A stretch of DNA of 64,000 bases. Origin: Paraflavitalea sp. CAU 1676. GTDB lineage: Bacteria; Bacteroidota; Bacteroidia; Chitinophagales; Chitinophagaceae. The DNA is taken from NCBI RefSeq assembly GCF_029223285.1, contig NZ_JARHUJ010000010.1, positions 1 through 64,000 of the forward strand, read 5' to 3'. Below the pieces are notes generated by a model that made no database searches, was not told the origin of the DNA, and was given only the letters and a program-made list of their open reading frames with translations. Every line of letters begins with the position of its first letter. The stretch's first letter is position 1. The position numbers and the translations under genes were made by a program. This document shows positions 33,321 through 52,473 of the stretch, piece after piece.

Positions 33321-33977
33321 ATGAGAAGTTTTGAAGATTCATATCGTCACAAGGGGATGCGGGCGCAGCTCGTTAAGTTATTGAAGGAGAAAGGGATTAC
33401 CGACGAGCGGGTGCTTACCGCCATTTCGAATATACCCCGGCATTATTTCATGGATTCTGCGTTCGATAAGATCGCTTATGAAGACCGCGCTTTTCCCATC
33501 GCGGCCGATCAAACCATTTCCCAGCCTTATACGGTAGCTTATCAATCGCAGCTGCTCGATATCAAACCCTACGAAAAAGTGCTGGAAATTGGCACCGGCA
33601 GTGGCTACCAGGCCATTGTGTTGGGTGAGCTGCAGGCGATGGTGTACACCATCGAGCGGCAAAAGAAACTCTTCGACGAACACCGCAAATTTGTGCTCCG
33701 CGGTAAATACCCCAATATTAAATACTTCTATGGCGACGGTTTCGAGGGGCTGCCTACGTATGGTCCGTTCGATAAGGTGATCATCACCGCCGCTGCGCCG
33801 TTCATTCCGCCCAAACTGATCCAGCAAATGAAAGTGGGGGCCAGGATGGTCATCCCCGTAGGCGAAGGCAATGTGCAACGCATGTTACGCCTCACCAAGC
33901 TGGCCGATGGCACCACCCGGGAAGAAGTGTTCGAGAACTTCTCATTTGTGCCCATGCTGGAAGGGAAGAATAATTAA
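33321..33977 (+). CDS. pcm: Protein-L-isoaspartate O-methyltransferase
   Basis: This 218-aa enzyme repairs isoaspartyl damage in proteins by methylating the abnormal carboxyl group with S-adenosylmethionine. The SAM-binding glycine motif VLEIGTGSGYQAIVLGEL starts at residue 87. The family signature upstream is AADQTISQPYTVAYQ, and VIITAAAPFIPPKLIQQMK follows. It is cytosolic, with no signal peptide. Its own consensus promoter lies just upstream, so it is a stand-alone housekeeping gene, not part of the glycan locus. It converges with the ABC exporter gene on its right. Confidence 0.95.
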   Translation: MRSFEDSYRHKGMRAQLVKLLKEKGITDERVLTAISNIPRHYFMDSAFDKIAYEDRAFPIAADQTISQPYTVAYQSQLLDIKPYEKVLEIGTGSGYQAIVLGELQAMVYTIERQKKLFDEHRKFVLRGKYPNIKYFYGDGFEGLPTYGPFDKVIITAAAPFIPPKLIQQMKVGARMVIPVGEGNVQRMLRLTKLADGTTREEVFENFSFVPMLEGKNN

Positions 33978-34044: not shown

Positions 34045-36234
34045 CTATTGACCAAGCTCCAACTGATTTCGTACCAGCTCAAAATACCTGCCTTTCTCCC
34101 GCGTGAGGCTTTCGTGATCACCAATGCCTGCAATCTGGCCCTTTTCAAGTACGATGATCTGGTCGGCGTTCCGTACGGTACTAAGCCGGTGGGCGATCAC
34201 CACCACTGTTTTGCCGCGGTAAAAGGCCTGTAAGTTCTCCATTATTTGCCTTTCGGTCCTGGCATCCAGGCTACTGGTAGCTTCATCGAAAAACAGGTAT
34301 TGCGGATCTTTGAATACCGCCCGGGCAATCAGTATGCGTTGTTTCTCTCCGCCGCTTAGTTCCAGCCCTGTTTTGCCGATCTTCGTATGGTATCCCATCG
34401 GCAAAGATTCCACGAATGGTGCTAAACAGGCTATATGCAAGGCCTTCATCAGCCTGGCGTCATCCGGTGATCCCTCCGCCAGCGATATGTTCTCTGCGAT
34501 CGTACCCGAGAAAATATATCCATCCTGCATCACTACTCCGCATCGTTTTCTCCAGGCATTGTTGTCGAGTTCCTGGAGCGGCTCCAGACCCAGGAAGATT
34601 GTTCCCTGTTGTGGCTGGTAAAAAGCCAACAACAACTTGAGCAAGGATGTTTTGCCCGAGCCGGAGGTGCCTACGATGGCGGTAACTTTTCCCGCAGGAA
34701 TAGCAAAGGAAATATTCTTCAGCACGTTACGTTGTTGAGCGCCTGCAAACCGAAACGACACATTGTCGAAACGAAAACCATGGGCAAGGGTGCCGGTTGG
34801 GATGCTCTTATTGATGGATACTTCATCTTCCCGTTGCCATATCTCATCCAACCGCTGAAAGGAAAGCTGCGACTGCTGCAACGACTGTAGAAATATCATC
34901 AGTCTGTCGATGGACCCCGATATCAAAGCGATGATGTAACCCACAGACAGCATCGTACCAATCGTCATGCTTTGGTGGATCACCCAATAAGCACACAAAA
35001 AGTTCATTCCCACATTTTTGAGTTGCGTCAAAACCTGTACACCCGATTGCTCATAAGCATGCAAATACAAACCACGTTTCTTAATGCCATATATGCGCGT
35101 TTGTAACGCTTCCCATTGCTTTACCTTTTGTTGCTGGGCGGCATTTACTTTGATCTCCAGCATCCCCGCTATCATTTCATTGACCAGCAGGTGATTTTCG
35201 GCGGAGGTATGAAAACTACTGTAATCCAGTTGGCTGCGGTGACGGTAAAACAACAGGAACCATCCCAGCGACAACAAGGTGAAAAACGTAAATACCAAAC
35301 CTACCCAAACATTGAACAGGAACAATTGGATGCTTAGTAATAGGATCAATACCAGCGAAAAGACAGCTTGTACCCACTCCTCCGATAAGAATTTTTCGAT
35401 CCGGCGCTGGTCTTCTATACGCTGGTATAAACTGGAGGGAACCCCGTTGTCAAAAAAAGAAACCGGTAACCGCACCACTTTAAGCAACAGATCGGTAATC
35501 ATTCGCCTCGACACCTTCATGCTCAATTCAACCCGCACCCAGTCTCTGATAAAGTTGAAAATGCTGCCGCTAATGATCAATACGACCTGGAACCACAGCA
35601 TCGTCCACAATACAGATAGATTTTTACCTTGTACGCCGCTGTCAACCATCTTTTTCATCAACTGGGGGAACACATAAGCGATCACGCTACCTGCCATCAG
35701 CGAAATGATCAGTACCCATAAAAAGCGATATTGATCCCGCAATGCGCGACGGTAAAATCCCAGGGTCTTCCCGAGTGTCGTCGCAAATGCCGTTCTGGGA
35801 AATTGTCTTTCTCTAAAATCCTCCGTGGTTGAAAAAGTTAATAATACGCCCTTATCATTGTCCTGCTTCCAGTACTGGTTGAAAGATTCTTTGTCAATCC
35901 TGATCTTCCCGTACGTAGGGTCAGAAATATAGAAATGCCTTTTTGAGATACGATACAATACCACAAAGTGATCCTGCTTCCAGTGCAGGATACAGGGCAG
36001 CACAGCAGACATTCGTAAGCCTGCTTCTGTGGCCCGCAGTACCGTTGATTTCAGTGACAACTGGCTGGCTGCCTCAACAAGATCGAGCATGCTTACCCCG
36101 GCACGTGTTGGATCGCACAGGTTCCTGAGATATTTCAGGTCACAGGATTTACCATAGTATTGGAGGATTATTTTGAGGCAGGTAGGTCCGCAGTCGCTTT
36201 GCTCTACCTGGAAATAGTGGGGGAAATGGCTCAC
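34045..36234 (-). CDS. Peptidase-containing ABC transporter (C39 bacteriocin-type exporter)
   Basis: This 729-aa protein has three parts. A C39 cysteine peptidase domain has C15 (QSDCGPTC), H89 (DHFVVLY) and D105 (YISDP). A six-helix ABC membrane domain spans about 165-450. The nucleotide-binding domain has Walker A GTSGSGKTS, signature LSGGEKQR and Walker B YLFFDEATSSLD. Such exporters cleave double-glycine leaders and secrete the core peptide; a matching precursor (residues 35-36 GG) is encoded 2 kb upstream in the same cluster. The start is a GTG at 36234, 9 nt after the preceding gene. All catalytic residues are present, so it should be active. Confidence 0.93.
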   Translation of the reverse strand: MSHFPHYFQVEQSDCGPTCLKIILQYYGKSCDLKYLRNLCDPTRAGVSMLDLVEAASQLSLKSTVLRATEAGLRMSAVLPCILHWKQDHFVVLYRISKRHFYISDPTYGKIRIDKESFNQYWKQDNDKGVLLTFSTTEDFRERQFPRTAFATTLGKTLGFYRRALRDQYRFLWVLIISLMAGSVIAYVFPQLMKKMVDSGVQGKNLSVLWTMLWFQVVLIISGSIFNFIRDWVRVELSMKVSRRMITDLLLKVVRLPVSFFDNGVPSSLYQRIEDQRRIEKFLSEEWVQAVFSLVLILLLSIQLFLFNVWVGLVFTFFTLLSLGWFLLFYRHRSQLDYSSFHTSAENHLLVNEMIAGMLEIKVNAAQQQKVKQWEALQTRIYGIKKRGLYLHAYEQSGVQVLTQLKNVGMNFLCAYWVIHQSMTIGTMLSVGYIIALISGSIDRLMIFLQSLQQSQLSFQRLDEIWQREDEVSINKSIPTGTLAHGFRFDNVSFRFAGAQQRNVLKNISFAIPAGKVTAIVGTSGSGKTSLLKLLLAFYQPQQGTIFLGLEPLQELDNNAWRKRCGVVMQDGYIFSGTIAENISLAEGSPDDARLMKALHIACLAPFVESLPMGYHTKIGKTGLELSGGEKQRILIARAVFKDPQYLFFDEATSSLDARTERQIMENLQAFYRGKTVVVIAHRLSTVRNADQIIVLEKGQIAGIGDHESLTREKGRYFELVRNQLELGQ

Positions 36235-36243
36235 GTGGCAGCA

Positions 36244-37068
36244 TTAAGGATTAAAATAACCAAGGTAGGTCAGGGTAACATCCACTGTAGTCCTGTTCAT
36301 CGTTGATCCGTCATGAACACAATTATCCGTAGGGGCAATGTAATAGGAATAAGCAGGCTGTTTGATCCTGACCAATGGGTAGGTTGGATAGTGTCTGAAA
36401 AAAACATCTGGCAGCGTGAACTGGCTTACGCCCTTTTCAAGGGGGTCTTTTTCCTGCACCATCCGCAAGATATCTTTAACCGACAGGTCAAGGAAAATAA
36501 GGTACCGTGGCTCATGGGTAATGTTGATGCACAACCTGTTTTTTGAACTTTCTGCTTTATCCAGTGTGATACCTTTGGATGAATCGAGGTGCAGACCCAG
36601 GAATTGAATATAGCCCTCCTCGTCTTTCCTCGATCCGGTGGTGTACAACCCTGGTAACATGCTGGCCAGTTTATATAACTCAGTTTCTGCTACAACATGC
36701 CGGTTGATCACGGGAAACAATTGTTCGGAAAGCCGATTCACGAGGTCGGCTTTCTCCTTAAAGAGGTCCAGTAATCGGTCTTTCACTCCTATCTGCTCTA
36801 TTCCCAATTGTTGTATCAGGTCGATCACATTGTCTGGTAGCGAATACAATCCCACTGTATTAAAGAAAGTGCTGCTCCCGGCATCGAAATGGCTCCTGTA
36901 TTCATATCCGGTGGCTACCCAGTCGTTGACAGGAATATACGATCCTGGCCGATAGTAGGCACCCGCCGGTGCCTGATCGTTGGTGGCTGGCATAACGCCG
37001 CTATTGAGGGCCACCTCTGTATCCTGCCGGATGCTATCTGCTATATATAATTGAATGGATTTGTTCAT
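36244..37068 (-). CDS. Unknown RiPP-cluster protein (274 aa)
   Basis: This 274-aa soluble protein has no signal peptide. I do not recognise the family. Conserved-looking stretches are YYRPGSYIPVNDWVATGYEY (about 38-57), RLCINITHEPRYLIFLDLSV and, near the end, SYYIAPTDNCVHDGSTMNRT, which contain several His and Asp residues that could bind metal. It overlaps the radical SAM gene by 4 nt (ATGA), so the two proteins are made together. It lies directly before the exporter gene. A second tailoring enzyme acting on the precursor, or a carrier/recognition protein, would fit. There is no direct evidence for either. Confidence 0.75.
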   Translation of the reverse strand: MNKSIQLYIADSIRQDTEVALNSGVMPATNDQAPAGAYYRPGSYIPVNDWVATGYEYRSHFDAGSSTFFNTVGLYSLPDNVIDLIQQLGIEQIGVKDRLLDLFKEKADLVNRLSEQLFPVINRHVVAETELYKLASMLPGLYTTGSRKDEEGYIQFLGLHLDSSKGITLDKAESSKNRLCINITHEPRYLIFLDLSVKDILRMVQEKDPLEKGVSQFTLPDVFFRHYPTYPLVRIKQPAYSYYIAPTDNCVHDGSTMNRTTVDVTLTYLGYFNP

Positions 37069-38267
37069 GCGACTTCGGTTTTAAATGATTCGAGCAAATA
37101 GAAATCATTGAAATAAGCGCTTTTCTCCAGGGCGGCTTCATTTTCCTGGTTGATCCGGTTCCACAGCTCTTCCGATGCGGTGTTTTTCATGTCTTCTTCT
37201 ACCAGGCCGATCATGTGTTTTATGAGGTTACAGTAAACCGAAGGATTGTTGAAACCGTTTACTTTGCTGTACCGGTGCGGCAAATAACCACCTCCGCAAA
37301 TATGCCGTTTGTCGCACTGCTGGCAGGTGGTGCAAAGATGCTGATGGCTATGGTAATACAGACTGATGTTTTCTTCCATAAAGATATCGGCGATCTCATT
37401 TTTATGGATGTTGATGCTGGATGCGGTAATACCGCTCTTGCAGCTTTTTAAGGTATCAACGGTTTCCAGGTCACCATTCGTTTCAACGATCAGCGACCCG
37501 CATTTGGTGATGCCCATTTGCTCATGGCCTTCATATATGCCGGCCTTTAGCCCAAGAATGGAATAAAAGAACAACAGCAAAGGTTTCCCCTGGTCATGGT
37601 CTTCCTTCCACAGCCGGTACAATCCTTCCAGTAAGGCAATGAACTTCTGCTCATCTTCCTGCTTATAAGTTTCAAAGGTGTGGAGTGGTAACAAGGTATT
37701 GACCAGGCCCACTTTGAGGTCCTTATATAAAGCATACAGGTCCGGGGCCTGCTCTTCTGGATTCAGTACCGTAATAAGCCCGAGCTTTTTGATAGAGAGC
37801 ATCTTCAGGTTACGGTATATTTCATCAAAACTTCCTTTTCCCGATTTGTATATCCGGAATTGATCGTGGATGTCTTTTGTACCGTCTATGGTAACGCCAA
37901 TGTCGATCTCATGTTTGTCGAGGAAATCGATCCATGCTTCGGTCAGCAAGGTGCCGTTGGTTTGAAGGGTCATGGAGTAATAGATACCCTGCCCTTTCAG
38001 GTGTTCGTCCAGGAGCGCTTTGGTGGCCGTAAAAAAAGAAGGGTTCACTAAAAGCGGCTCTCCGCCATGAAAAACAATGATCACATTCTTAACGCCCGAC
38101 TGCCTGGAGTAGGTGGCGATCTTCCGGCACAAAACCTCCATGGTATCATTGCTCATGAACCTGGGCTGTTTTTTATAGGATGAATCTTCCAAATTGTACA
38201 TGTAGCAATACGTGCAATTGATGTTGCACCTGCTGGCTATTTTAATAACATAGGTGTTGATAGGCAT
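37065..38267 (-). CDS. FxsB-like radical SAM/SPASM peptide maturase
   Basis: 400 aa from ATG 38267; the frame is open up to 38345, but that start would lie inside the upstream hairpin region. The radical SAM cluster motif is C14-x3-C18-x2-C21 (SRCNINCTYCYMY), followed by FHGGEPLL and TNGTLLTEAWIDFL. The C-terminal SPASM region has CTTCQQCDKRHICGGGY with further Cys for auxiliary iron-sulfur clusters. The pattern KKQPRFMS after the cluster and the overall layout resemble FxsB-type enzymes, which form three-residue cyclophane crosslinks on aromatic side chains. The substrate is very likely the 61-aa precursor encoded just upstream. It overlaps the 274-aa gene by 4 nt. Confidence 0.9.
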   Translation of the reverse strand: MPINTYVIKIASRCNINCTYCYMYNLEDSSYKKQPRFMSNDTMEVLCRKIATYSRQSGVKNVIIVFHGGEPLLVNPSFFTATKALLDEHLKGQGIYYSMTLQTNGTLLTEAWIDFLDKHEIDIGVTIDGTKDIHDQFRIYKSGKGSFDEIYRNLKMLSIKKLGLITVLNPEEQAPDLYALYKDLKVGLVNTLLPLHTFETYKQEDEQKFIALLEGLYRLWKEDHDQGKPLLLFFYSILGLKAGIYEGHEQMGITKCGSLIVETNGDLETVDTLKSCKSGITASSINIHKNEIADIFMEENISLYYHSHQHLCTTCQQCDKRHICGGGYLPHRYSKVNGFNNPSVYCNLIKHMIGLVEEDMKNTASEELWNRINQENEAALEKSAYFNDFYLLESFKTEVA

Positions 38268-38294
38268 AAGGCAACAGTTGGATAAGGTGAAAGA

Positions 38295-38325
38295 AAAAGC
38301 TGTTCCCGTGCAGGGAACAGCTTTT
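38295..38325 (-). terminator. Hairpin attenuator between precursor and maturase
   Basis: The arms aaaagctgttccc (38295-38307) and gggaacagctttt (38313-38325) pair perfectly over 13 bp with a 5-nt loop. On the reverse strand the hairpin is followed by a T-rich run. It starts 10 nt past the precursor stop and ends before the radical SAM start, so readthrough would set a high precursor-to-enzyme ratio. Confidence 0.9.
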
Positions 38326-38334
38326 ATACCTAAA

Positions 38335-38520
38335 CTAGGGCTCAATAGGGGGCTTGATCTGATGGAAAGTAGACTCAGAAAAAGTACCTACGTTGCAGGT
38401 CTCGATATCTTTACCGCCAATGATGGCGCTTAAAAGATCGATCTTTTCCCTTAAAGCCTGTTCGGAACCGAGCAGTACTTCAACATCCTGTTGCTTTGTT
38501 TCAACTGTGTTTGATTTCAT
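38335..38520 (-). CDS. RiPP precursor peptide with double-glycine leader
   Basis: This 61-aa peptide is the probable substrate of the cluster. The N-terminal leader (1-36) is charged and helical, with LLGSEQALREKIDLLSAIIG ending in the G35-G36 pair, the type of site cut by C39 peptidase exporters. The predicted core (37-61) contains one Cys and two aromatic triplets, FSE and FHQ, within GTFSESTFHQI, followed by a Pro-rich end, KPPIEP. Aromatic-x-x triplets are what FxsB-like enzymes crosslink. The call as a gene rests on cluster position, the leader, and the hairpin right after its stop. Start ATG 38520. Confidence 0.85.
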   Translation of the reverse strand: MKSNTVETKQQDVEVLLGSEQALREKIDLLSAIIGGKDIETCNVGTFSESTFHQIKPPIEP

Positions 38521-38711
38521 TTTGGATAATTTTTAATGATAAACAATGACCCAGCCTACTGCCTGGGAATTGGCAGGGCAATTCTGCGCAAGCTTGCCGT
38601 GCTTGTTTTAGTACTAAAAAACGTTCGGGAGGATGGATTTTTTGCAAGGGGATCCCGTTGCGCCAGCGATGCCCGCTTCGCAAATGTGCCATTCCTCCCT
38701 ATCTTGATTAT

Positions 38712-41126
38712 TTATTTGCCTATCCTTCGCTTCTCCTCGTTGTTGCCTGCACTCTTATTGATCCCGCTATTTCTTTCCTTATGCTGGAAGTTGTAGGCTA
38801 TCGTCAACCTTACGCCTGAATTCATTTCGTAATAATTCCTTTCGGAGATCTGTGTCTGCTCGTACACTGTTCTGTAACGGTCAAAAGCTGTATGGAATAT
38901 ATCATTTACCGAGCCGGTAAATCTCCAGGTCTGACCAAGACGTTTTGAAACAAATCCGTTTACAACGAATTGGTTCTTTACATAGGTGTTGTCGCTATAG
39001 AAGGGCGCGTTTTCCGAAATGTCTGCTCCAACTATAAGGTTCCACAAGGACTTGATGGTCGCGGAGCTATTGATACTGGCCGTAGCGAAAGCAGTTCGCT
39101 GGTTAATGGGGAAATTCACAACACTCCCTTTGTAATGGATCAATCCTGCGTACAGGTTAAAGGAAGTGGAGAGCCAGGGAAAAAATTGCGGATTCAATGA
39201 CGAAACAACCGTAACTGCATTGAAATCTGAATAGTTTCCTTTTTGGGTGTGTAATTTACCGTCATTATCCACAATGGTCTGGGCGGAAATCCGGTTATAC
39301 GTTTGACTGTAGATCAGTTGGAATATATGCTTGTTCTGCAAGGTATAGGTCAATTCATGCCGGTAGCGCCTGGAAGGCCTTAAAAATGGATCACCTGTCA
39401 GGTATATCCGGTCTGTACTATACAATTTGAACGGATTTACATCAAAAAACGATGGGCGCTGCAGCTGGCCAATAAAAGCATAGCTCAGCTGGTGCGATGG
39501 ATGCAGGGAATAGAACAAAAAGGCGTTTGGGAAAAGGTTGGTATACCTGTTTTTTGTCCGTGTATCGTCGCTTTCGTTCAGTGTGCGGGTTTGCTCAAGG
39601 CGTAAGCCAAGTTTGTAATTCAATGTGGGACCAATTTTATGCGTCAGCGAACTGTAAACCGCATATATCTGCTCTTTGTACAGAAACGACTGGCTTTCGT
39701 GGATGTCATGTATAAAGCCACTCCCATTCCAATGATCGAAAGCGATATCACCGCTGCTTTGGGTTTGGCTATACTTAGTTCCCATATCCAGTTGAAATTT
39801 TCCCCGGTTCCAGGGATAGGTATAATCGGCATTGGCCGTATAATTCCAGATCGAAAGGGGCAAGCCGTTTTTGAACAGGTTACGGAATATTTCTGCTGTG
39901 CCTTCCTGTTGCTTAAAGGTGGTGTTCAAGGCGCCATTCCTGTCTTCTTTAAACCAATAGCCCGACGTTTGCAACTTCAACGATTGGCCGGCACTGTCCA
40001 GTCGTATCTTATAAAGAAGGTCGGCATTTACATACTTCGCCAGCTCCGTATTGCCGCCACGCGAAACGTGTATGGAGTCTGTTGTATTCATGGCCGGCGA
40101 CAGGAACCGGGTGGGCGCTATATTGTCCCTGTCCATATCCCTGAGTGAATAATCTACCACAAAGCCTAACTGGTGATGGCGGTTGAATTTGTAGTCCATG
40201 CCTAGATTGCCTGTTACTCCTTTCTCTTTGCTGTCTCTATCAACATTGACCTGCTGATTACTAACGTTGGGATTGGGTTGCTTGAAGGAATAGTCACTGT
40301 GTATTTTTTGCCAGCTTAGAAAATGACTGTTTGTTACGTTGGTAAATCCATAAACCGTGAGCTTCTTTTTTTGGTACTCCGCACTGGCTGTCAATGATTG
40401 GTTATTATAGGTCAGCTGCGTGGTGCTGAATTGAACCCCGCCGAGCCAGCCGTCCGTAACTGGTTTTTTCAGGATGATATTGATGATACCTCCTTTGGTG
40501 TCTGCATCAAATTCGCTGGAGGGCGTTGTGAGTATTTCGATCTTATCAACCGACCCGGCAGGGATGCCCTTCAGGTAAGCAGCGAGGGCGTCTGGCGGCA
40601 TTCTTAAATTCCTGCCATTCAATTGAAGCGTGCCGCCTCCTCCGCTCAACAAGATGAGGCCTGGCTCTTTTACCGTGATAAGGGGCGATTTCCCCAGTAC
40701 TTCCCAGGCATTCGAGGCGCCTGCAATCCTTTGGGCCACATTTACTATAAAGCGGTCGGCTTTTCGTTCTATCAATTGCTTTCGGCCGGTTACCTGCACC
40801 TGCGTAAGATGATTGGCATTAATAGTCAGTACCTGGTTGACCTGCGAATTTTCCGTAATACGCAGCACCGTATCTGATGAAAAGTAATTAAGGTGAGAAA
40901 AGACAAGTTTGTAAGTAGCTGCGGGGATCATTGTAAACTGATACTTCCCTCCATGATCGCTCAACGCCGTTTGTACAACCGTCGTGTCTTTGATCAAACT
41001 GATCGTCACAAATTCGATGGGGTGTTGGGCGCTATCAACAACATGGCCCGAAAGTGTGAATTGTGCACATAGGCCAAAGCTCCTCATAAGTAGTACAAGT
41101 ACTAATAACTTTTTAGCGATTCTCAT
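38712..41126 (-). CDS. TonB-dependent outer-membrane receptor (OMP_b-brl_3 type)
   Basis: 804 aa from ATG 41126; an in-frame GTG at 41138 adds four residues. A signal peptide (KKLLVLVLLMRSFGLCAQ) precedes a carboxypeptidase-regulatory-like domain (LSGHVVDSAQHPIEFVTISL). A plug-like segment follows with VQVTGRKQLIERKADRFIVN and LQLNGRNLRMPP, then KGGIINIILKK and a long barrel with C-terminal LTIAYNF near the end. This matches the outer-membrane beta-barrel family 3, not SusC. It is the first gene of the reverse-strand RiPP cluster. It may take up the finished peptide, for example a metallophore, or serve as an immunity or sensing receptor; both are inference. Confidence 0.85.
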   Translation of the reverse strand: MRIAKKLLVLVLLMRSFGLCAQFTLSGHVVDSAQHPIEFVTISLIKDTTVVQTALSDHGGKYQFTMIPAATYKLVFSHLNYFSSDTVLRITENSQVNQVLTINANHLTQVQVTGRKQLIERKADRFIVNVAQRIAGASNAWEVLGKSPLITVKEPGLILLSGGGGTLQLNGRNLRMPPDALAAYLKGIPAGSVDKIEILTTPSSEFDADTKGGIINIILKKPVTDGWLGGVQFSTTQLTYNNQSLTASAEYQKKKLTVYGFTNVTNSHFLSWQKIHSDYSFKQPNPNVSNQQVNVDRDSKEKGVTGNLGMDYKFNRHHQLGFVVDYSLRDMDRDNIAPTRFLSPAMNTTDSIHVSRGGNTELAKYVNADLLYKIRLDSAGQSLKLQTSGYWFKEDRNGALNTTFKQQEGTAEIFRNLFKNGLPLSIWNYTANADYTYPWNRGKFQLDMGTKYSQTQSSGDIAFDHWNGSGFIHDIHESQSFLYKEQIYAVYSSLTHKIGPTLNYKLGLRLEQTRTLNESDDTRTKNRYTNLFPNAFLFYSLHPSHQLSYAFIGQLQRPSFFDVNPFKLYSTDRIYLTGDPFLRPSRRYRHELTYTLQNKHIFQLIYSQTYNRISAQTIVDNDGKLHTQKGNYSDFNAVTVVSSLNPQFFPWLSTSFNLYAGLIHYKGSVVNFPINQRTAFATASINSSATIKSLWNLIVGADISENAPFYSDNTYVKNQFVVNGFVSKRLGQTWRFTGSVNDIFHTAFDRYRTVYEQTQISERNYYEMNSGVRLTIAYNFQHKERNSGINKSAGNNEEKRRIGK

Positions 41127-41340
41127 AGAGTGACACACCTGATTAGGAATAAAGCTCTTCTGGTTAATGGTTTGTTAACAGTTCATGATTGCATATGTTG
41201 AATACTGTTAGCGATAGCTAATTTATGGAAACAATTAAAACAACCAAGAACAAACCCGTATCCGTGCGTAAAATAATGATAAGTGTGCAGTTTTCGGCTG
41301 TAACTGTGCACGGAGGATCTATTTTAGCAGCCTCGCGCTA

Positions 41341-42198
41341 TCAGTTTCCTGGCATTGAAGTGCTAATCTTTTTGCTCTTTTCTGTCGTTAAACTGCTGAC
41401 GGTAATGTATTTCTTCTCGTACTTGTAGAATGCCTTAATGATGCGAACAGGATTTTTCCATTCAAACAGGTGAATGATCCACATGGTGATGCGGATTAGT
41501 CCTTTCGGCTTTACCAACGATTGCCCCAGTTTTTGGATGCTGGCGTCGCGCGCAGTAATGCAATGGGTATAATCGGTGGGTTTCATTAACTTGCCATGGA
41601 GGTCTTCCGCGAAACTCCAGGCGCCGTCGCGCGCATTGGAGATGCTGAACTGGATGAGGATCGATTCGTTGGTGGCGTGGAAGCCAAAGAGCGAGAGCAG
41701 GGGAGATACCCGGTTCAGTTCATTCATCACTTCAAAGATCAGCGAGCCGATAATAGTATTGATGCTGTTGAAATCATTGCGGATGGTGCGGATATCGTTG
41801 GTGCCGGCCGTTTCCACGGCGGCGATGCCCAGGTCGAAGTTGATATGGGCGTTCATGCCCAGCAGCATATGCTGCAATACCAGCACCTGGCGCCGGCGGC
41901 TCGAGTCGAAGGCCGTAGCCCAGGAGCCCGCTATTTTTTGGTTGTTCCGCAACTGACGCACCGCTGCGAGGTAGCGGTTGGCGAAGACCACATCCAGTTT
42001 TTCCATCCTTGCGCCATCTTCAAACTCATTGTTCAAGATACCCTGTTTTACCCGTACCGTTACTTTATGATACAGGGCCGCAAAATAACCGATGCGGTCG
42101 CGCGTGGCTTCACAGTCGGCGATGAGCGCTTCCAGTTGCGCAATCACGGCATCGATGGTGGTGGGTAACGGGGTGGTTGGCATGGGTGTTAAAGACAT
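41341..42198 (-). CDS. DUF5995 family protein
   Basis: This 285-aa soluble helical protein matches DUF5995. It has GYFAALYHKVTVRVKQGI, ARMEKLDVVFANRYLAAVRQ and especially LVLQHMLLGMNAHINFDLGI (about residues 105-124), the family signature containing conserved His and Asn. The family has no established function that I know; the conserved His/Asp/Asn could suggest a metal site. It is divergently oriented from the sigma factor gene at 42423 and is not obviously part of any locus here. Start ATG 42198. Confidence 0.85.
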   Translation of the reverse strand: MSLTPMPTTPLPTTIDAVIAQLEALIADCEATRDRIGYFAALYHKVTVRVKQGILNNEFEDGARMEKLDVVFANRYLAAVRQLRNNQKIAGSWATAFDSSRRRQVLVLQHMLLGMNAHINFDLGIAAVETAGTNDIRTIRNDFNSINTIIGSLIFEVMNELNRVSPLLSLFGFHATNESILIQFSISNARDGAWSFAEDLHGKLMKPTDYTHCITARDASIQKLGQSLVKPKGLIRITMWIIHLFEWKNPVRIIKAFYKYEKKYITVSSLTTEKSKKISTSMPGN

Positions 42199-51843: not shown

Positions 51844-52473
51844 ATGATTTCTGGTGAGATCAATAACGACGTGCAGCTGGCAGCTGCTTTCCGCGACGAC
51901 AACGAAAAGACTGCTCTCCCCGCACTGAATGCACTTTGGAAAAATAACTACAAGGCGTTGGTGTTCTATGCCAACCAGTTAATAAAGAACGACCTCCTGT
52001 CGGAGGATATCGTTTCGGAGGTGTTCACCAAATTGTGGGCCCTGCGCAAGAACTTCGACAATACGCCCAGTATACGGGCCTTCCTCTACGTATCCGTGCG
52101 CAATGCCTGCTACGACCACCTGCGTAGCGAGGATATCCATAACAGAATTCACAAAGAAATACTGTACACGACCGATTATGTGGCAGAAGTGAACCGGGAT
52201 GATTATGATATGATGTATGCAGAATACATTCAGCAATTGTATGTGCAGGTAAAGGAGTTGCCGGAGCGTTGTGGGGAGGTATTCAAGTTGTTCTTCTTTC
52301 AGCAGCTTACTACACGCGAGATCGCGCTGGCGCTCAATATATCAGAGCAAACGGTGCGTAATCAGAAAACAAAGGCGGTGGGCATATTGAAAGCCGCTTT
52401 GTTGAAGAAAGACCTGTTGCCGGTTTCTTTTGTACTCCATGTATTCGCTATTTTACTAGCAGGAGATGAATGA
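51844..52473 (+). CDS. ECF sigma factor (FecI-like)
   Basis: 209 aa. Region 2 is IKNDLLSEDIVSEVFTKLWA with the preceding YKALVFYANQL, and region 4 is LPERCGEVFKLFFFQQLTTR then EIALALNISEQTVRNQKTKA, a typical helix-turn-helix. The C-terminal tail (VSFVLHVFAILLAGDE) is hydrophobic, a feature of many Bacteroidota ECF factors. It is followed by a FecR gene and an STN-type SusC/SusD locus, which it probably controls. Start ATG 51844. Confidence 0.9.
   Translation: MISGEINNDVQLAAAFRDDNEKTALPALNALWKNNYKALVFYANQLIKNDLLSEDIVSEVFTKLWALRKNFDNTPSIRAFLYVSVRNACYDHLRSEDIHNRIHKEILYTTDYVAEVNRDDYDMMYAEYIQQLYVQVKELPERCGEVFKLFFFQQLTTREIALALNISEQTVRNQKTKAVGILKAALLKKDLLPVSFVLHVFAILLAGDE

Follow-up and report, generated by a model that had tools for sequence, protein, structure and literature searches.

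The window, by which we mean the whole stretch of 64,000 nucleotides analyzed, comes from the 8.8 Mb genome of Paraflavitalea sp. CAU 1676 (G000). It contains a run of five genes on the minus strand (41126-34045), which in order of transcription encode a TonB-dependent receptor, a precursor peptide, a maturase, a protein of 274 aa and a C39 exporter (Table 1). The run is flanked by PCMT (33321-33977) on one side and fecI (42369) on the other, with a DUF5995 gene at 41341-42198. The initial annotation read it as a radical SAM RiPP cluster, and this was confirmed by the Pfam domains, by the five parts lying where they had been placed and by the conserved gene order and precursor. We regard it as a genuine and conserved RiPP cluster. 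Its kind is known, and it adds two features: an oxygenase of MicC type and a receptor whose clade is linked to peptides. No candidate immunity gene was seen at the locus beyond the five operon genes, and neither the MicC-type protein nor the DUF5995 protein was matched by PADLOC.

Table 1. Features of the cluster and its surroundings, in window coordinates.
Feature	Position	Strand	Basis
TonB-dependent outer-membrane receptor, 804 aa	38712..41126	-	ATG at 41126; PF14905 and PF13620; signal peptide by eye
Precursor peptide, 61 aa, GG at residues 35-36	38335..38520	-	Profile of relatives; alignment with 8 relatives
Predicted core, 25 residues (37-61, after GG)	38338..38412	-	GG position and C39 exporter; putative cleavage site
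Triplet Phe47-Ser48-Glu49, predicted cyclophane site	38374..38382	-	Motif match by eye; triplet enrichment
Triplet Phe52-His53-Gln54, predicted cyclophane site	38359..38367	-	Motif match by eye; triplet enrichment
Terminator-like hairpin with U run in precursor-maturase gap, putative attenuator	38295..38325	-	Folding against shuffles
Radical SAM/SPASM maturase, 400 aa from ATG 38267	37065..38267	-	NCBIfam YhhB/FxsB below cut-off; PDB ChlB; Cys positions
Predicted MicC-type Fe(II)/2-oxoglutarate oxygenase, 274 aa, H160-x-D162...H252	36244..37068	-	PDB 9vkm match; invariant triad; AF2 model
C39 peptidase ABC exporter (PCAT), 729 aa	34045..36234	-	PF03412, PF00005, PF00664
Stretch missing at the homologous site of congener G003: cluster and DUF5995 gene	34045..42198	-	Comparison with L079

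The leader of the precursor ends in IIGG and is followed by the core KDIETCNVGTFSESTFHQIKPPIEP. No Pfam domain was matched. Of the 554 ORFs of 30-200 aa in the window, the precursor ranked first (E 0.0033; next-best ORF, E 0.69) against a profile of the precursors of eight relatives, from which the window was left out; a chance ORF was rejected on this ground. The match spans the end of the leader and Cys-Asn-Val, and the triplets lie outside it. The relatives' precursors were found to have a similar leader end before GG (or AG) and two triplets. Cys-x-V shortly after GG was kept in 8 of 9 aligned precursors, with the window, L059, L060 and L062-L065 among the carriers; the conserved Cys is encoded at 38395-38397 in the window. 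Conservation of the precursor beside the radical SAM gene in relatives, the absence of which the initial annotation had set in advance as its refutation, was thus observed.

The two aromatic triplets previously noticed in the core, FSE and FHQ, are present and have counterparts in relatives when the motifs are matched by eye. FSE corresponds to YSQ in L007 and to YDK or YDR in other relatives, and FHQ to FVQ in L007 and to FLQ, FLR or FLK in relatives; YSQSTFVQ of L007 was set against FSESTFHQ of the window in the same way. Automatic alignment of the precursors leaves some triplets out of register. For counting, cores were selected by a fixed rule: the ORF had to begin with ATG, be 40-100 aa long, end between 700 bases upstream and 90 bases downstream of the maturase start, and have its first GG at residues 19-56. 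This yields 38 distinct cores; 25 of 57 maturase ORFs, including those of L007 and L060, give no core by this rule. Aromatic-x-[EQKR] occurred 86 times in these cores against 27.3 ± 4.3 after shuffling (0 of 2000 shuffles as high), a figure that refers to a class set after inspection of the precursors and to cores that are not independent when from related genomes. At least one triplet was present in 35 of the 38 cores and at least two in 27. The three cores lacking a triplet came from L028 and from apparently spurious ORFs of L032 and L061. The control class AGILVMFT at the third position was depleted (16 vs. 53.9). A hand-picked set of 37 cores gave 84 vs. 25.9 with a triplet in every core, and had omitted at least one triplet-free GG peptide (L028); the fixed-rule count is the figure to use. 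At L013:7418-7894 two precursors carry triplets mostly with His as the ring residue (HSQ and HGQ repeats).

The gap between the precursor stop and the maturase contains a hairpin of -22 kcal/mol (51-nt stretch; z -5.9), and none of 200 shuffles was as good. A scanner for consensus-type terminators did not list it. When seven loci were folded, a stable hairpin was found at this place in the window, L062, L065, L007 and L035 (z -2.8 to -5.9), and none in L064 and L060. The window hairpin could act as an attenuator that gives an excess of precursor.

The maturase carries the Pfam domain Radical_SAM, the cysteines C14-x3-C18-x2-C21 (CxxxCxxC) and, in the SPASM region, another seven Cys. Its nearest NCBIfam models are YhhB (299.4 bits, cut-off 445) and FxsB (273 bits, cut-off 370), and in all ten maturase relatives scored one of these two was best, always below cut-off. 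In the PDB the maturase matched ChlB (9gm3; 3.3e-49), and a scan of viral contigs with the maturase gave no relative. FxsB-type chemistry had been proposed initially; filing the maturase as FxsB was rejected, since both cut-offs are missed, and YhhB scores higher. The available text of PMC11002830 describes triceptides and their linkages, including those of YhhB (Tyr-Arg, His-Arg). Like the triceptide enzymes XncB, OscB, MscB, YxdB, HaaB and YhhB, the window maturase is a SPASM radical SAM protein encoded beside a short precursor with aromatic-x-residue triplets. It differs from them in scoring below the cut-offs, in the third residues being Glu and Gln, and in the addition of a MicC-type oxygenase and a receptor.

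The 274-aa protein, on whose identity the initial annotation is silent, was named by neither Pfam nor NCBIfam. With phmmer it matched PDB 9vkm (MicC, an alpha-ketoglutarate-dependent non-heme iron oxygenase) at 1.2e-23, and a profile of the family matched 9vkm at 1.1e-69 as the only relevant structure, the other three matches having E above 0.4. The homology spans residues 4-272, and H160-x-D162 and H252 were invariant in all 26 aligned homologues. In the AF2 model (pLDDT 92) the best Foldseek match was the 2OG hydroxylase KdoO at E 1.7e-4 with a TM-score of only 0.39, and 9vkm was not among the best 50 matches listed; the 2-oxoglutarate-oxygenase fold is thus supported by weak TM-scores, next to the HxD...H triad and the sequence homology to MicC. 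On sequence evidence, we assign the fourth gene as a MicC-type 2-oxoglutarate oxygenase. With such an enzyme encoded in the cluster, the product is probably oxidized as well as cross-linked. A pairing of this kind is described in the available text of PMC12636437, where the radical SAM enzyme ChlB and the 2-oxoglutarate HExxH enzyme ChlH introduce cyclophanes and beta-hydroxyl groups. The likeness lies in cyclophane formation being paired with 2-oxoglutarate oxidation; there, according to that text, the oxygenase is a fused HExxH domain of zincin-like fold, whereas that of the window is a separate HxD...H protein of MicC type. The MicC family is rare (3 of 395 genomes across the phylum and 6 of 394 across the family, own genome counted in each) and occurs in tandem, with two copies in L059, three in L060, L063 and L064, and four in L062 and L065. 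MicC is known to us through its PDB name and the sequence match. The open-access literature, covered through titles and the beginnings of abstracts and with subscription papers mostly outside, gave no MicC cluster, substrate or reaction, and no description of this core.

The genome mining suggested by the initial annotation showed that four other genomes (L062, L063, L064 and L065) share the gene order and carry a homologous precursor next to a maturase of this type, each with three or four MicC copies. L060 contains all these parts as well, the exporter lying upstream. Scanning species genomes with the maturase returned 33 loci of 30-38% identity; by title, 31 belong to Bacteroidota records. 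A receptor homologue was found at 19 of these loci, a C39-type ABC homologue at 26 (a weak fragment in L020 was left out) and a MicC homologue at 5. In L003, L059 and L066 the maturase is accompanied by MicC homologues, and neither a receptor nor a C39 exporter was found in the stretch examined; the receptor is therefore not indispensable to the type.

Closer to the window the cluster is patchy. Of the five genus genomes scanned, only that of the window was found to carry the maturase, and of 59 relatives two were, again counting the window genome. In congener G003 (L079) PCMT lies directly beside fecI-fecR-susC, so the stretch was either inserted in the window genome or lost in G003. GC content is 0.44-0.50 at 34-42 kb, compared to 0.51-0.57 at 26-34 kb, 0.48-0.51 at 42-45 kb and 0.55-0.57 at 45-48 kb. 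At 48-50 kb it is nearly as low (0.46-0.49), and the dip at the cluster is thus not unique. The DUF5995 gene was considered as a cluster member, which was unsupported, its divergence being like that of its former neighbor gene. Its orthologue in G001 and G003 adjoins the orthologue of the window gene at 51844-52473, which indicates a local move with ordinary divergence.

The receptor is of the OMP_b-brl_3 type, as had been stated from the sequence alone (PF14905, 1.5e-63; PF13620, CarboxypepD_reg, 3e-11). Its AF2 model (pLDDT 83.4) has an N-terminal domain, a plug and a barrel as in 22-stranded TonB-dependent transporters (strands not counted exactly), with Cir, PirA and PfeA as the nearest solved folds in Foldseek. 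A low-confidence linker at residues 105-114 lies where the TonB box would be expected.

That the receptor belongs to the cluster, also claimed initially, was borne out by several comparisons. In all five genomes with a close cluster relative and a receptor (G657, G481, G196, G732 and G756; 27-71 receptor candidates each) the receptor of the cluster was the best match to that of the window, at 283-321 bits; the best non-cluster match outside G001 was 231 bits. A second MicC cluster of G732 (L061) has a distant receptor (79 bits). In a tree of 47 receptors, that of the window grouped with a G001 orphan, L060 and L062-L065 (95/86), and the maturase tree agreed on the partners (98/95), as expected from co-inheritance. 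The tree has several long branches and a midpoint root, and its 20 background rows of 73 are mostly the best-scoring. Of the 22 receptors in a wider group (98/96), 11 come from maturase clusters and 7 from MicC clusters; the others are the orphan and three background receptors. These background receptors adjoin other GG-peptide/C39 clusters, closely in L098 and L099 and with the exporter 7.6 kb away in L100; all three had been fetched because they lie near MicC clusters. Outside the clade, 0 of 16 background receptors had a C39 ABC or such a maturase within ~7 kb (16 of the 17 were used, L086 being left out for its short contig), and two of the 16 have a 254-aa ABC ATPase of an unrelated kind in their flanks. 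The clade does not take in six of the maturase-cluster receptors and two of the MicC-cluster receptors, and is thus not the sole kind of receptor used.

Another type of GG peptide, with a tail rich in Cys, Gly and Asn, is encoded at L098:8054-14004+ and L099:7459-13808+, where its gene is flanked by those of a C39 exporter and of a receptor belonging to this clade. These clusters sit ~10 kb upstream of MicC clusters.

The orphan in congener G001 (L077:8678-11092) is 69% identical to the window receptor and has an open frame with no stops. No maturase or MicC was found in the G001 genome and no other cluster gene beside the orphan. Compared to the window receptor, pN was 0.19 and pS 0.81; pS is saturated, and constraint after cluster loss is thus unproved. 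The open frame and pN < pS fit a receptor that is useful without the biosynthetic genes.

The exporter has the domains PF03412 (6.7e-34), PF00005 and PF00664, and DCGP near the N-terminus contains the catalytic Cys. The match between GG leader and C39 exporter pointed out initially was thus upheld, GG being at residues 35-36. No membrane fusion protein gene is present at the locus, where the exporter gene is the last and is followed by the convergent PCMT, nor was one found beside the exporter in other clusters of the window type. Including the window's, 31 C39 clusters were compared in neighborhoods of ~8-10 kb. Twelve had no fusion-protein gene by the exporter and all of them had a receptor, all seven without a receptor in the stretch had a fusion-protein-like gene directly after the exporter, and twelve had both. 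L008 and L035 were counted as having a fusion protein on account of a small one-helix protein at its place that the profile missed, the L061 receptor was counted as present though under the detection threshold, and the fusion proteins of L014 and L016 are cut by the end of the stretch. The association was significant by Fisher's test (p 0.026). On the maturase tree it came down to two lineages and 3 independent pairs with no significance, and an exchange of receptor for fusion protein as an established fact was dropped.

The fusion-protein-like genes after the exporter often encode only 140-250 aa, compared to 432 in L030, and the proteins may lack the hairpin that reaches TolC (L005:3297-4016, L013:11495-11980, L017:11512-12237, L004:11443-11973 and others). 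Instead of a C39 exporter, L007 encodes between MicC and the receptor (L007:10110-10955) a 281-aa ABC transmembrane protein in which Pfam finds no ATPase domain.

We propose, with a probability of roughly two in three, that the cluster makes a triceptide-like RiPP that is oxidized by the MicC-type enzyme, exported by the C39 transporter and handled by a cognate receptor. The precursor would be recognized via its leader. The radical SAM enzyme would join each Phe of FSE and FHQ to the beta carbon of the third residue, giving two three-residue cyclophanes; the linkages that the available text of PMC11002830 lists do not include Phe-Glu or Phe-Gln cyclophanes, which counts against these cross-links. 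The MicC-type enzyme would then oxidize at least one core residue, probably by hydroxylation, and the exporter would cut after Gly36 and move the 25-residue product out of the cytoplasm. Finally, at the outer membrane, the receptor would act on the mature peptide, most likely by cognate uptake, with producers and the receptor-only congener recognizing the peptide. The metal-binding or signaling role suggested initially is a hypothesis beyond this reading. A precedent for a RiPP cluster with its own receptor is the itf cluster of Bacteroides thetaiotaomicron, which in the available text of PMC11002830 combines a radical SAM enzyme with the C39 exporter ItfE and the TonB-dependent transporter ItfF. 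It differs in having a YcaO amidine enzyme and a Trp-Ile cross-link, and the likeness is one of gene content, kinship of the receptors aside.

Another reading differs in the direction of transport. The receptor could instead be an outer-membrane export channel for the periplasmic peptide, replacing fusion protein and TolC, much as the TonB-dependent transporter Oar of Myxococcus xanthus is needed for secretion of PopC (PMC6434023, available text). The distribution of receptors and fusion-protein-like genes over the C39 clusters points this way, as does the PF13620 domain at the N-terminus of both Oar and the window receptor; the substrate of Oar, PopC, is a protease and not a GG-leader peptide. 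The available text of PMC10352776 likewise notes Bacteroidales clusters with PCAT and OMP and no MFP, and asks if transport differs. We consider such export unlikely and keep it only as a rival, because the association is not significant once kinship is counted; moreover, twelve clusters have both proteins and a fusion protein could be encoded elsewhere in the genome. The open and conserved orphan in G001 would have nothing to export, which argues against export alone and is why a cognate receptor is preferred. An extended version, in which a clade of OMP_b-brl_3 receptors is dedicated to C39-exported GG-leader peptides and serves as outward carrier where the fusion protein is absent, perhaps also in re-uptake, is equally doubtful; if true, it would amount to a TolC-independent secretion route for RiPPs of several chemistries in Bacteroidota.

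It is rather improbable that the peptide acts as an antibacterial of narrow spectrum, with such receptors as its way into rivals and the copy in the cluster serving self-protection or sensing. Cir bound to a microcin domain is among the nearest solved folds, C39 exporters export microcins (PMC10352776, available text) and the cluster is patchy within the genus; on the other hand, the five operon genes are accompanied by no immunity-gene candidate, and an entry receptor would sensitize the producer. A nutrient receptor that lies upstream by chance, with the cluster consisting of precursor, maturase, MicC and exporter only, is very improbable. In its favor, OMP_b-brl_3-like receptors are abundant, the genome of the window having 72 candidates with 7 at 1e-40 or better, and the tree places eight of the cluster-linked receptors with the background. 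Against this stand the best matches in five of five genomes, the same gene order in four others, and the flanks of the background receptors, with a C39 exporter or such a maturase by none of the 16 outside the clade and C39 peptide clusters by the three inside it, which had been fetched for their nearness to MicC clusters; by best-match, tree and flank controls we rejected the receptor as an ordinary neighbor.

With one precursor, maturase, oxygenase, exporter and receptor, the window cluster is a compact test case for a sparsely studied type of peptide system, which bears on how C39-exported peptides cross the outer membrane of Bacteroidota where no fusion protein adjoins, and on the role of the TonB-dependent receptors that RiPP clusters encode. 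Through it the MicC oxygenases, present in as many as four tandem copies in one cluster, are linked to cyclophane-type precursors. The MicC cluster at L059:10089-11243, with no C39 exporter or receptor found nearby, is followed by an aspartyl-protease-like gene whose product might cut the leader. L003:8202-14366 is a mixed cluster, in which the run of genes that holds the maturase and two MicC homologues also includes a phosphoesterase gene and one resembling lantibiotic dehydratases.
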